The position numbers and the translations under genes were made by a program. From Syntrophomonas sp. DTU019 (lineage in GTDB: Bacteria > Bacillota > Syntrophomonadia > Syntrophomonadales > Syntrophomonadaceae), in assembly GCA_913757435.1 (NCBI GenBank), contig CAJYDM010000006.1, positions 1 through 64,000 on the forward strand: a DNA stretch of 64,000 nucleotides, in the 5' to 3' direction. The notes under the pieces are model-generated. The model saw only the letters and a program-made list of their open reading frames with translations. It did not search any database and was not told where the DNA came from. Below are positions 28,125 to 39,754 of the stretch, one piece after another (the stretch's first letter is position 1; each line of letters starts with the position of its first letter).

Positions 28125-29536
<1,412 letters not shown>

Positions 29537-29561
29537 AAATGAATATATGGGGGTGTACCAC

Positions 29562-30056
29562 ATGAAAAGGTCAAACAGTATTACTGTTTCATTTGGGAAG
29601 CCTGTTACGGCTTCCTGCCTTATTCCGGTGCTGCACGATTCAACGCCCAACTGTATCAGCGATCCGTTCATGGTTTACGGAGAAGAGTATAGAGTAACTG
29701 CGCTGTCCTTCGGAACGCCTCACGGCGTCGTAATTGTAAATGATGCCGAGAGCATTGATGTTTGGTCATTGGGATCATCGCTTGGCACACATGTCCTCTT
29801 TCCGCAGGGTGCAAATATTGTTTTCGTCCAGATAATCGACAGCGAAACAATCAAAGCCCGGCTTTGGCAGCGCGGCGAGGGCGAAACCGCATTCACACTC
29901 GAAGCAGTCTGCGTTGCGATGGTAGCTTCAAGGATGCTTCAAAAAATAATGGTGCACAAGGCGAACGTCTTGATGGGGGGAAACACCTTTGAGGTAGAAT
30001 GGGACACTATCGGCGATGCAAAACTGACAGGACCGGCAGATTTGGTTCATAATTAA
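29562..30056 (+). CDS. Half-length DapF-like protein lacking the catalytic cysteine
   Basis: 164 residues from the ATG at 29562 (GGGGGTG upstream), 25 bases after gdhA. It aligns with the C-terminal half of diaminopimelate epimerase: FGTPHGVVIVND matches GNPHCVVFVDD, NIVFVQIID matches NVEFVQVLD, and RLWQRGEGETA matches RVWERGAGET. The following canonical ACGTGAC, which holds the active-site Cys, reads FTLEAVC, so that Cys is Thr. With half the fold and the nucleophile gone, epimerase activity is unlikely; a regulatory or small-molecule-binding role in glutamate metabolism is possible. Operonic between gdhA and the glutamine synthetase. Confidence 0.65.
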   Translation: MKRSNSITVSFGKPVTASCLIPVLHDSTPNCISDPFMVYGEEYRVTALSFGTPHGVVIVNDAESIDVWSLGSSLGTHVLFPQGANIVFVQIIDSETIKARLWQRGEGETAFTLEAVCVAMVASRMLQKIMVHKANVLMGGNTFEVEWDTIGDAKLTGPADLVHN

Positions 30057-30141
30057 ATTAATCCGATTATGCCCGGAGGAAAACAAGCTTTTATTATGTC
30101 TGCATCCGTTATCAGTAAGTACATTCGCTCTGACCGGTTTA

Positions 30142-30231
30142 ATGATAATTTTTGGTATATCAGTAGGTTTGTATGGGATGAAGCTTTTCAGTTATTATGT
30201 GGCCGCGAATAAAGGTCTTGATATAGATTAA
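30142..30231 (+). other. Possible remnant of a membrane protein (29 codons)
   Basis: ATG at 30142 opens a hydrophobic peptide MIIFGISVGLYGMKLF followed by YYVAANKGLDID and a stop; upstream codons in the same frame are also hydrophobic but lack a start. No ribosome site. It may be the tail of a deleted membrane protein or chance. The rest of the 223-base gap before the glutamine synthetase shows no terminator. Confidence 0.25.
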
Positions 30232-30279
30232 CTCCGAAATTTAGCAAAAAGCTTTACCGTTCAATAGGAGGATTAACAG

Positions 30280-31602
30280 ATGAATACTACCGCATGCGAA
30301 GTCTTGGAATTTGTAAAAGAAAATGGCATTAAGTTCGTCCGGCTTGGGTTTTGTGATCTGCTTGGCTTTCAAAAAAACATATCCATCATGGCGGAGGAGT
30401 TGCCGTCTGCTTTTGACGTTGGCGTTTCCTTTGACGCTCACGCAATCCAGGGCTTTAGTGACATCGTGCGGTCTGACTTGCTCCTGGTCCCTGACCCCGC
30501 CACGCTTACGATTTTGCCGTGGCGTCCGGGGCCGGGCAGAGTCGCCCGATTTTATTGCAATATTATCAACCCAGACGGCTCTGCGTTTGCGCTTGACGGA
30601 AGAGCAATATTAAAGCGAGTTGCGGAGCAAAGCGTCAAGATGGGCTTTGTTTGCAGAATCGGAGCGGAATGTGAATTTTACCTGTTCAAGACCGACGAAA
30701 ACGGCCAGCCAACATGTACACCTATGGATAGGGGCGGGTATATGGATATTTCGCCGCTTGATAAGGGCGAGGATATCCGCCGTGAAATTTGCCTGACGCT
30801 TGAGGAAATGGGTATAATGCCGCAGACTTCGCATCACGAACAGGGGCCGGGACAAAACGAGATAGTCTTCAGATTCTCAGACGCTCTAGCCTGTGCGGAT
30901 AACCTACTGACTTTTAAGTCGGTTGTTAAAGCGGTTGCTGCGCGTAACGGGTTGTTTGCATCTTTTATGCCTAAACCCATACCGAATGCCGCTGGAAGCG
31001 GTCTGCATGTCAACCTTTCCCTTTTCCAAAACGGATTGAATATCTTTAAAAATGCGGCACTCGACGAACACTCAAAGATGGCGGAGAGCTTTGTCGCGGG
31101 AATACTGTCAAGAACTCCTGAGATGACACTATTCCTGAATCCTCTTGCCAATTCATATGAACGCTTCGGTAAATATGAAGCGCCGCAATATGTTTCGTGG
31201 TCGCACCAAAACCGTTCACAGCTTGTTCGAATCCCCGCCGCAATCGGTGAAAAGGTTAGAATGGAATTGCGTTCACCTGACCCATCAGTCAACCCATATT
31301 TCGCATTTGCTCTGATTATAGCGGCGGGACTTGAGGGGATTGAAACCGGTTTGGCGCTTCCTGCCGCCGTTGATGCGGATTTATACACGGCTCTGGACAG
31401 AGTGACATGCAACCTTGCCTTGTTGCCGGACAGTCTTGACAAGGCGGTAGAAATTACCAAAGGGAGCGGATTTGTGAAAAAGATAATGGGCGAGGATTTG
31501 CATTCAAAATACCTTGCTATCAAGGAATCCGAAGCAGCCGCTTTTGCCGTCGCCAAAGATAAAGCAGAGTTTTACAGGGAGAGATATTTTTCTTACATTT
31601 AA
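30280..31602 (+). CDS. glnA: Glutamine synthetase, class I (GSI-alpha type)
   Basis: 440 residues, AGGAGG ribosome site. Beta-grasp N-terminal domain (residues ~15-100), then the catalytic domain: GAECEFYLF, HHEQGPGQNEI, GSGLHVN, NSYERFGKYEAPQYVSW and RMELRSPDPSVNPYFA, covering the metal-binding Glu residues, ammonium site and ATP/glutamate-binding Arg residues. No adenylylation Tyr segment of the GSI-beta enzymes is visible. It shares an operon with gdhA and an ANTAR regulator. Some family members in Clostridia act on other amines, so glutamine synthesis is likely but not certain. Confidence 0.88.
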   Translation: MNTTACEVLEFVKENGIKFVRLGFCDLLGFQKNISIMAEELPSAFDVGVSFDAHAIQGFSDIVRSDLLLVPDPATLTILPWRPGPGRVARFYCNIINPDGSAFALDGRAILKRVAEQSVKMGFVCRIGAECEFYLFKTDENGQPTCTPMDRGGYMDISPLDKGEDIRREICLTLEEMGIMPQTSHHEQGPGQNEIVFRFSDALACADNLLTFKSVVKAVAARNGLFASFMPKPIPNAAGSGLHVNLSLFQNGLNIFKNAALDEHSKMAESFVAGILSRTPEMTLFLNPLANSYERFGKYEAPQYVSWSHQNRSQLVRIPAAIGEKVRMELRSPDPSVNPYFAFALIIAAGLEGIETGLALPAAVDADLYTALDRVTCNLALLPDSLDKAVEITKGSGFVKKIMGEDLHSKYLAIKESEAAAFAVAKDKAEFYRERYFSYI

Positions 31603-31667: not shown

Positions 31668-32237
31668 ATGGAAAGCGCTCTTATTGTTTCATCTTCTGTA
31701 AAAAGCACGGCATACTTTACCGAAATATTAAGCGCGGCTTCCTTCGGGCAAATCGTTGCCTTGTCATCATGCGCCGAGGCACGGCGACTGCTTCTCACAC
31801 AGGATTTCGACTTGGTAATCATAAACGCGCCGCTTCGGGACGAAACGGGCGAAAGTCTGTCAAGGGATATTTCCGCAAAAGGGATGACGCAAGTGATCCT
31901 GGTCGTAGCTAGCGAGCATTTTGAAGCTGTATCCGCCATCTGTGAAAACGACGGCGTGCTGACTATCGAGAAACCGATTAATAAAGCCCTATTTTGGTCT
32001 GCATTGAAGCTTGCGCGTGCGGTTCACAATAAGCTCGCAAATATGCAAGCCGATAACAGTAAATTGAAACAGAGGATTGAAGATATACGCATAGTAGACA
32101 GAGCGAAATGTATGTTGATTTCTTGCCTCAACATGAGCGAGCAGGAAGCGCACCGATATATTGAAAAAACAGCGATGGATATGCGTATGTCCAAAAGGAT
32201 GATTGCGGAGGGAATATTAAAAAGTTATGAGGTTTGA
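31668..32237 (+). CDS. ANTAR-domain regulator with degenerate receiver
   Basis: 189 residues. N-terminal ~120 residues form a response-regulator receiver fold, but the phosphoacceptor position is Asn53 (LVIINAPLRDETG) instead of Asp; the conserved KP pair is kept (TIEKPI). A coiled-coil linker (~120-140) leads to the C-terminal ANTAR helices, RIVDRAKCMLISCLNMSEQEAH and MSKRMIAEGIL. ANTAR proteins bind hexaloop RNA hairpins and prevent leader termination. Last gene of the gdhA-glnA group and probably acts on the gdhA leader (28125-28182). With no phospho-Asp, activity is presumably set by protein partners such as glutamine synthetase; this is inference. Confidence 0.88.
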   Translation: MESALIVSSSVKSTAYFTEILSAASFGQIVALSSCAEARRLLLTQDFDLVIINAPLRDETGESLSRDISAKGMTQVILVVASEHFEAVSAICENDGVLTIEKPINKALFWSALKLARAVHNKLANMQADNSKLKQRIEDIRIVDRAKCMLISCLNMSEQEAHRYIEKTAMDMRMSKRMIAEGILKSYEV

Positions 32238-36550: not shown

Positions 36551-36835
36551 ATGGCCTTAACCATAAAGGAAGTCGAACATGTAGCTTTGTTGGCCCGACT
36601 GAGTCTGAGTGAGGATGAAAAAGTGAAATTATCCCAACAGCTTGGTGCCATCCTCAATTATGCTGATACCTTGAATACCATACCTACCGACAATGTTGAA
36701 CCACTTACACATATACTGTCGGTGCATAATGTTTTCAGAGCCGATGAAGTCCAGCCCAGTATGCCTCGCGAAGAGATGCTGGCCAATGCTCCCCTGGTTG
36801 AAGCAGGTTATTACAAAGTACCGAAAATAATGTAG
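36551..36835 (+). CDS. gatC: Asp/Glu-tRNA amidotransferase subunit C
   Basis: 94 residues, standard GatC length. [16 protein letters not shown] and a central NVEPLTH motif; the C-terminus ends [12 protein letters not shown] as in the family. Clamp subunit that stabilises GatA on GatB. AAGGAGGT ribosome site. 13 bases before gatA. Confidence 0.93.
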
Positions 36836-36848
36836 AGGGGTTGAGGCC

Positions 36849-38303
36849 GTGGAGTTATTTGAACTTACTGTGCATGCCTTGCAGCAGAAGCTGGCTAGTC
36901 GCCAAGTATCATCAGAAGAAATTGTGAAATCGATTTTTGCCCGCATTAATAAAGTTGATGATAAGGTCAAAGCATTTATTACCCTGACCGAAGAGGATGC
37001 CCTGAACAAGGCAAGGGAAGTTGACAATGCCGGTCAATATAAAGGTATTGCCGGGATTCCCTTGGGATTAAAAGATCTATTTTGCACCCCAGGGGTCAAT
37101 ACCACTTGCGGATCGAAAATGCTGGCTGATTTTGTGCCTACCTATGCTTCCACGGCCTTCCGCCGCCTCGAAGAACAGCAGGGCATACTAGCAGGCAAGC
37201 TGAATATGGATGAATTCGCCATGGGTTCTTCCACCGAAAACTCGTCATTCTTTGCTACCTGCAACCCCTGGGATTTGACCCGTGTGCCGGGGGGATCGTC
37301 GGGTGGTTCGGCTGCTGCGGTGTCTGCCGATGAAGTGCCGTTTAGTCTGGGAACTGATACGGGCGGTTCCATAAGACAGCCCGCATCTTTTTGTGGTGTG
37401 GTCGGCATGAAGCCAACTTATGGCAGAGTATCACGCTGGGGGGTTATCGCTTTTGCCTCATCCCTGGATCAAGTAGGGGTTATTAGCAAAGATGTGTACG
37501 ATAATGCTCTGATTATGAAGATTATTGCTGGGCACGATCACCTGGATTCTACCAGTGCAGCCCTGGATGTACCCGATTATACTGCCTGTCTGGACGGCGA
37601 TATAAAGGGACTTCGTGTTGCCTATCCGCAGGAGTACTTCGGATCAGGAGTGGATGCAGCTATCAAAGATGCCATCAAAAAGGCTCTGCTTAAATATGAG
37701 GAATTAGGTGCGATAGTTGAGGAGGTTTCTTTGCCCCATAGTGAATACGCTCTGCCGGCCTATTATCTGGTGGCTCCAGCCGAGGCCAGTGCCAATCTGG
37801 CTCGATTTGATGGCGTACGGTATGGTTATCGGGATAATGAGGCTGAGAATATGGAAGCGATGTTTTCCCAAACGCGCTGTCAGGGCTTTGGAGATGAGGT
37901 GAAAAGACGCATAATGCTAGGAACCTACGCACTTAGCTCAGGTTATTATGATGCTTATTATCTCAAGGCTTTGAAGGTAAGAAGGTTGATTGCGGATGAT
38001 TTTACCAGGGTATTTAAAGACTTCGATATTATCGTGGCGCCGACGACTCCCACCACCGCCTTTAAATTGGGAAAGCAGTCGGGTGATCCTTTAACTTTGT
38101 ATATGAATGATATATTGACCGTTCCGGTTAATATGGCCGGGTTGCCGGGAATGTCCATCCCTTGTGGATTCGATCAGGGCATGCCCATTGGCATGCAGAT
38201 AATTGGAAAGGCATTTGATGAGGCAACCATATATAAAGCCGCCTATGCTTATGAGCAGAGTACCAATTTTCATACTATGAAACCGGCTCTGGGGGTGGAA
38301 TAA
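36849..38303 (+). CDS. gatA: Asp/Glu-tRNA amidotransferase subunit A
   Basis: 484 residues from a GTG with GAGGGGTTGAGG upstream. Amidase-signature Ser-cisSer-Lys triad: Lys in GLKDLFC, cis-Ser and Ser in [12 protein letters not shown] and [12 protein letters not shown]. Releases ammonia from glutamine for transamidation of Glu-tRNA(Gln)/Asp-tRNA(Asn). The stop overlaps the gatB ATG by one base. Confidence 0.95.
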
Positions 38304-39754
38304 TGAGTAAGGATTATGAAGTAGTGATTGGGCTGGAGGTTCATGCCGAACTAAAAACCCAAACCAAAATATTTTGCTCCTGTTCCACTGCCTTCGGGGC
38401 AGAGCCCAATACTCAAACCTGCCCGATTTGTGCAGGTTTCCCGGGAGTTTTGCCGGTGCTTAATAAAAAGGTTGTAGACTTGGCCATTACAACTGGTTTA
38501 GCCTTGAATTGTGAGATACCCAATATATGCAAATTTGATCGTAAGAATTATTTTTATCCTGACTCACCCAAAGCCTATCAGATATCGCAATTTGATATGC
38601 CGATATGTATAAATGGTTATCTGGATATTGATGTTGAAGGGCGTAGAAAGCGTATCGGTATAAATCGGGTCCATATGGAAGAAGATGCCGGTAAGCTCGT
38701 GCACCAGGGCGATATAACCACCACTCCCTTTTCTTTGGTGGACCTTAATCGCTGCGGCATACCGCTGTTGGAAATTGTCTCTGAACCTGATATGCGCTCG
38801 GCTCAAGAGGCCCGGGCTTATATGGAAAAACTGCGCGCCATGTTGCTTTTTGCAGGCGTTTCCGACTGCAAGATGCAGGAAGGATCATTGCGTTGTGATG
38901 CCAACGTATCGGTAAGACCGATCGGACAAGTGGAGTTCGGAACTCGAACGGAGATCAAGAATTTGAACTCCTTCCGGGCTTTGGAAAGAGCTATTGAATA
39001 CGAAGCTGCCAGGCATATCGAAGCCATTAAAGGTGGGGAGACACTTGTACAAGAGACTCGTACCTGGGACGAAGAAAAGCAGTTGACTCGTTCCATGCGA
39101 TCTAAAGAAGAAGCCCATGATTATAGGTATTTCCCGGAACCCGATTTGTTGCCTTTGAAAATAAGCCAGGAATGGGTTAATTCCATTCGGGCGGCCTTCC
39201 CGGAAATGCCGGAACAAGCTCAAAAACGTTTGGTAGAGGAATACGGGTTGCCGGAGTATGATGCACAAATTTTAACCTTAACGCCCGACAGCCTGGCCTT
39301 TTTTGACCAATGCTTAAAGCAGTACCCGGATGCCAAGACCATTTCCAATTGGATGATGGGGGAATTCAACCGTTTATTGAATCAGAACAATATGGAAATT
39401 GGTGAAAGCAAGGTAACCGCTGCCGGCCTGGTCCAAATGCTTAAGTCCATCGATGATGGCACCATCAGCGGTAAGATGGCCAAAATGGTTCTTGAGGAAA
39501 TGTTTGCTACCGGTAATTGTCCTGAGGTTATTATCCGGGAAAAAGGGCTGGTGCAAATTTCCGATGAGGGAACCCTGCTGACGTTGATAGACGATATAAT
39601 CAAAACCAACCCCAAGGTGGTGGAGGATTATAAAAGCGGTAAAGAGAAAGCCTTCGGCTTTTTCGCAGGTCAGATCATGAAAGCCACTCAAGGGCAGGCC
39701 AATCCGACCCTGGTAAATAAATTACTGAAAGACCGGCTTAACCACATACAATAG
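38303..39754 (+). CDS. gatB: Asp/Glu-tRNA amidotransferase subunit B
   Basis: 483 residues. [19 protein letters not shown]-terminus, the Cys motif CSCSTAFG...CPICAGFPG that binds zinc, [11 protein letters not shown] and DFNR-type residues of the kinase site, then helical and YqeY-like tail domains ([12 protein letters not shown]). Phosphorylates and amidates misacylated tRNA. Presence of GatCAB implies no dedicated glutaminyl- or asparaginyl-tRNA synthetase for at least one of these tRNAs. Confidence 0.95.

Follow-up and report, generated by a model that had tools for sequence, protein, structure and literature searches.

A half-length DapF gene downstream of gdhA

The window, a 64,000-nucleotide stretch of Syntrophomonas sp. 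DTU019 (positions 1 to 64,000 of contig CAJYDM010000006.1), contains a short gene immediately downstream of gdhA whose product corresponds to a lone C-terminal lobe of diaminopimelate epimerase (DapF); we refer to this protein and its orthologues as half-DapF. The gene order is gdhA, half-DapF, a glutamine synthetase (GS) family gene and an ANTAR gene, with gatCAB 6.5 kb further on:

28205–29536, + strand: gdhA, NADP-specific glutamate dehydrogenase; its stop lies 25 nt before the half-DapF start
29549–29555, + strand: GGGGGTG, which probably serves the half-DapF gene as ribosome-binding site, from the sequence
29562–30056, + strand: half-DapF gene, an intact ATG-to-TAA open reading frame of 164 aa; a lone C-terminal DapF lobe without the catalytic Cys
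29634–29654, + strand: HDSTPNC (residues 25–31), from alignment; the family motif HxSTPxC, absent from DapF
29892–29912, + strand: FTLEAVC (residues 111–117), in place of DapF ACGTGAC, from column comparison
30280–31602, + strand: glutamine synthetase-family protein; orthologues in GS-ANTAR cassettes from other phyla are 60–74% identical
31668–32237, + strand: ANTAR-domain response regulator, the partner of the GS gene, from its domain match and neighbourhood
36551–39754, + strand: gatC-gatA-gatB, the Glu/Asp-tRNA amidotransferase genes; in the window these serve as context only

A longer TTG-initiated frame beginning at 29466 is also open; the starts of the orthologues correspond to 29562 in the alignment. 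Between the half-DapF and GS genes (30057–30232, second frame) sits a short, membrane-helix-like open frame ending FALTGLMIIFGISVGLYGMKLFSYYVAANKGLDID, which has no clear start codon. Around the genes of the window, an Rfam scan identified no RNA elements.

The protein matches Pfam DAP_epimerase (PF01678) with an E value of 3.5e-13 and 50.1 bits, above the gathering cut-off of 34.7. Its match to the NCBIfam DapF model TIGR00652 (5e-21) covers only model positions 109–264 of 270, which bears out the earlier note's claim that only the C-terminal half of DapF is represented, and at 75.3 bits it falls below the model cut-off of 114.65, as does every half-DapF scanned. Solved bacterial DapFs (274 residues) likewise align with it from about residue 109 onward. 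Within the substituted active-site stretch, Thr112 occupies the position of the catalytic Cys217 (Haemophilus influenzae DapF numbering), so that Thr does stand at the nucleophile position, as had been read from the sequence; Glu114 occupies that of Thr219.

An AlphaFold2 model built from 20 sequences is predicted to form a compact single lobe comprising the full DapF C-lobe (pLDDT 90.8, pTM 0.87), uncertain only around the loop of residues 21–30 and at the termini, and a model from five half-DapFs alone has the same topology at lower confidence (pLDDT 70.8). The best solved structural matches are DapFs, aligned over their residues 109–265 only, with E. coli DapF (6d13_A) at the top (Z 24.8, rmsd 1.6 over 156 residues); in the same ranking, proline racemase, PhzF and other folds of this kind come well after DapF.

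A conserved family of one-lobe, cysteine-less proteins

An initial contig search with half-DapF as the query, using exact 8-mer patterns, returned no orthologue, probably because exact 8-mers cannot reach orthologues at 60% identity. With the neighbouring glutamine synthetase as bait we recovered 80 GS-ANTAR loci, four of which carry a half-DapF 54–62% identical to the window protein. A five-sequence profile, run against additional contigs or stretches from 50 of the GS-ANTAR genomes, then yielded seven further members, and an order-level search added one, for a family of 13 (the window protein and 12 orthologues). The family did not grow when the search was extended to 394 genomes from a different order, which suggests that it is rare and patchy. 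Only DapFs were matched in 54 genomes of the family and 63 of the order, and only full-length frames in 398 genomes of the phylum at E ≤ 1e-23, a strict limit that a diverged member could escape. No orthologue turned up among viral contigs or in the phage and plasmid collections; what these two collections matched was at the level of DapF (<40% identity among the matches listed). Short frames in two relatives (G053 and G038) proved to be DapFs interrupted by a frameshift or by the end of a contig rather than half-DapFs. Those members whose records carry a name belong mainly to uncultured Oscillospiraceae/Clostridiales (Bacillota) and, judging from the record names, come from termite guts and digesters. 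No description of the family was found in the literature searched, in which subscription papers were covered only in part.

Twelve aligned members are 154–208 aa long and share 40–71% identity; the thirteenth has 161 aa. Four of them (L217, L219, L220 and L223) have a variable N-terminal extension of 30–40 residues, with a repeat-like SLG...IPV pattern in two. Against the five-sequence profile, half-DapFs score 174–315 bits and any DapF at most 114. Pairwise dN/dS is 0.10–0.30 where dS is measurable, indicating purifying selection. A phylogeny of the short homologues and a comparison of a predicted structure with DapF had both been proposed as checks: the structural comparison confirms the C-lobe fold, and in a tree that also includes 86 rows of DapF and CarB-DapF (like our other trees a quick search, with some rows partial) the half-DapFs form a single clade apart from DapF, on a long stem with SH-aLRT 100.

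Half-DapFs are 30–37% identical to the DapF C-lobe and share its fold and a set of structural residues (Gly12, Pro22, Gly51, Pro53-His54, Gly71, Phe80-Pro81, Phe88, Trp102 and Trp147), whereas DapF itself has two pseudo-symmetric lobes in about 270 aa. Both catalytic Cys residues are present in 60 of 60 stand-alone full-length DapFs from the collected loci. Cys is found at the nucleophile position in none of the 13 half-DapFs (11 have Thr, one Ser and one Ala), and the N-lobe Cys (Cys73) has gone together with the N-terminal lobe. Using the DapF ligand set of PMC12039745, we find that the Asn157 position is occupied by Thr, Ser, Asn or Ala, that Asn190 is mostly Ser, that Glu208 is Gln (Gln103) in 11 of 12, that Thr219 is Glu (Glu114) in 11 of 12 and Gly220 is Ala, and that the Arg209 and Gly218 positions are variable; the most diverged member, L226, has Ala and Gln at the Thr112 and Glu114 positions. 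The residues fixed specifically in half-DapFs are above all those of His25-x-Ser-Thr-Pro-x-Cys31 (His25 in 11 and Cys31 in 12 of 12), followed by Pro35 and Asp66. The switch of C-lobe ligands and catalytic Cys, together with the fixation of new residues, indicates that the epimerase site has been lost and something else conserved. We regard half-DapF as almost certainly a conserved single-lobe protein that is not an epimerase, in keeping with the earlier proposal of a repurposed fold.

The converse had also been foreseen, namely that homologues elsewhere would be full-length DapFs with Cys and the window gene a decayed one; we looked for this and rejected it. The protein is truncated and its active site gone, and the same genome encodes another DapF elsewhere, full-length and with both Cys (C1:914055–914867), next to genes for a GS and an LL-diaminopimelate aminotransferase-like protein, yet descent as the decayed remnant of a duplicated dapF is hardly credible given 13 orthologues that are all open, half-length and Cys-less and evolve under purifying selection, a resident DapF that groups with same-genus DapFs and is not sister to the half-DapFs (quick tree), and six of 12 host genomes in which full-length DapF was undetected, although incompleteness of the metagenome-assembled genomes (MAGs) may account for the last.

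Among the related loci we also observed carbamoyl-phosphate synthase large subunits with a complete C-terminal DapF (L092:3171–7214, − strand; L095:1855–5907, − strand; L096:841–4785, + strand), with further CarB-DapF fusions at L117, L120, L127, L142, L147, L150, L175 and L181. Among 16 fusions, both Cys are kept in 11, both are lost in three (in the window's family) and the first is lost in two. No description of such a fusion was found in the literature searched, which included subscription papers only in part. The fusions, which occur in the same family and guild, resemble half-DapF in tying a DapF domain to nitrogen and glutamine metabolism and, in some, in having lost Cys; unlike half-DapF, they carry a whole two-lobe DapF on carbamoyl-phosphate synthase. 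They are separate from half-DapFs in the tree, and descent of half-DapF from them is unsupported by it (a quick search with some rows partly covered).

Gene neighbourhood and acquisition

In ten of the 11 cases that are readable, gdhA lies immediately upstream of half-DapF on the same strand (upstream of L220 and L223 the short MAG contigs are unreadable); the two genes are 17–36 nt apart in nine of the ten and 90 nt apart in the other. The earlier note placed half-DapF at a conserved position between gdhA and glnA-type genes; the gdhA side of this holds, whereas GS lies directly 3′ of half-DapF in the window only, the GS-ANTAR pair elsewhere being upstream of gdhA or apart. The usual downstream neighbour is gatC (TIGR00135), which is the next gene in six genomes and in places overlaps or nearly touches half-DapF. 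The suggested link to glutamate and glutamine genes is nonetheless real, and stronger than one window could show: nearby lie the glutamine-dependent enzymes GlmS, HisH/HisF, CTP synthase, GMP synthase, CarB, GatA/GatB and FGAM synthase with a glutaminase domain, as well as the GS-ANTAR pair. The exception to gdhA linkage is L219, in which half-DapF has gatC next to it and no adjacent gdhA. At L224:5625–6605, a meso-diaminopimelate dehydrogenase gene (TIGR01921) is immediately upstream of the gdhA-half-DapF pair, and L223:282–319 (− strand) contains a SECIS element (RF01990), the sole Rfam match in the related loci, adjoining an apparent glycine-reductase-type gene.

All ten linked GdhAs fall within one supported GdhA clade, which also holds five GdhAs without a neighbouring half-DapF (L140, L146, L148, L155 and L164). 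The sub-pairs L224/L225 and L216/L221 match between the half-DapF and GdhA trees; from this agreement, gdhA and half-DapF appear to have been inherited as a pair, with some losses.

The window cassette was probably acquired by horizontal transfer. Its GdhA is 81% identical to foreign Bacillota copies versus 67% for two complete same-genus copies, and its GS is up to 74% identical to foreign Bacillota copies versus at most 53% within its own order; in same-genus genomes gdhA stands in a different context, and half-DapF is missing. The GS-ANTAR pair itself, at 60–74% identity (L116–L195), occurs in genomes assigned to Bacillota, Treponema, Fibrobacteria, Planctomycetaceae and Synergistaceae, with numerous termite-gut and digester MAGs among them, and it looks like a mobile nitrogen cassette.

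Possible roles of half-DapF

We favor, tentatively and with a probability of roughly 0.4, the view that half-DapF has no catalysis of its own and acts at the glutamate/glutamine node by partnering or regulating GdhA, as gene context, the predicted structure and analogy suggest. On this view half-DapF, a one-lobe descendant of DapF incapable of the epimerase reaction, would have been retained as a protein partner and produced alongside GdhA. Its binding target may be GdhA alone or GdhA in complex with glutamine-using enzymes encoded downstream, GatCAB for example; contact would be made by the surface that the lost N-lobe once covered or by the family-specific HxSTPxC loop, and would tune GdhA activity to the nitrogen state. 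The parallel is E. coli DapF, which activates the RppH protein without needing its own active site (PDB 6d13, 6vck): the Cys73/217Ala protein still binds and stimulates RppH (PMC4227774). The DapF fold thus serves there as a protein partner independently of epimerase activity, as we propose for half-DapF; E. coli DapF differs, however, in being a full-length two-lobe dimer and an active enzyme, and RppH is a Nudix hydrolase, not GdhA. Counting against the partnership are the five same-clade GdhAs with no half-DapF beside them, which indicate that GdhA does not need half-DapF, and L219, where the converse holds; adjacency to gdhA may reflect shared regulation only.

Alternatively, along the lines of the sensor that the earlier note suggested, half-DapF could be a free-standing small-molecule sensor, its cleft binding glutamate, glutamine or another nitrogen metabolite and signaling to GdhA, GatCAB or the ANTAR regulator. 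The glutamate/glutamine context throughout and the new fixed polar residues at the old cleft (Gln103, Glu114 and the Ser replacing Asn190) would suit such a role, which we consider unlikely, as the DapF residues that hold the amino and carboxyl groups (Asn157, Asn190, Glu208, Arg209 and Cys217-Gly218-Thr219) are lost or variable, and a single open lobe lacking the closing N-lobe would presumably make a poor ligand trap.

It is distinctly unlikely that half-DapF is a new enzyme, in which two copies, or one copy and a partner, close together so that Thr112/Glu114/Gln103 or His25/Cys31 perform other chemistry. The near-invariance of His25, Cys31, Gln103 and Glu114 fits this proposal, and racemase-fold dehydratases of the Cys-Thr type (T3LHypD; PMC4364671) are functional with Thr where the second catalytic Cys would otherwise be. 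However, those enzymes have two lobes, retain the N-lobe Cys that half-DapF lacks, and are only distantly alike in fold (Z about 12–13.5); L226 departs from the proposed residues at two positions, and the gene cluster would make sense without an added enzymatic step.

We think it improbable that what half-DapF modulates is GatCAB, or the glutamine regulon as a whole, and not GdhA, its place beside gdhA then following merely from operon structure. Although the six genomes with gatC next in line include L219, where gdhA is not nearby, gdhA is adjacent in ten, and it is kept where gatC is absent (the window, L216, L221, L226 and L247). More speculative again, and in our estimation a long shot, half-DapF could represent a return to the one-lobe ancestor of DapF and proline racemase, with a homodimer forming a new symmetric cleft (Thr/Glu/Gln plus His25/Cys31) for a new reaction or for metabolite gating coupled to GdhA.

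In the DapF/proline-racemase fold a duplication has produced a clamp of two lobes, both of them required for its chemistry, and a conserved one-lobe, Cys-less family suggests that half of the clamp is useful alone. Judged by its Pfam match and its modeled structure, half-DapF belongs to the DapF fold but is not DapF. Most half-DapFs pass the Pfam cut-off (two of ten other members lie just under it, at 33.1 and 33.6 versus 34.7), and automatic annotation is therefore likely to mislabel them as diaminopimelate epimerase. The tight link to gdhA and glutamine enzymes points to an unrecognized layer of control over ammonium assimilation in anaerobic Bacillota.
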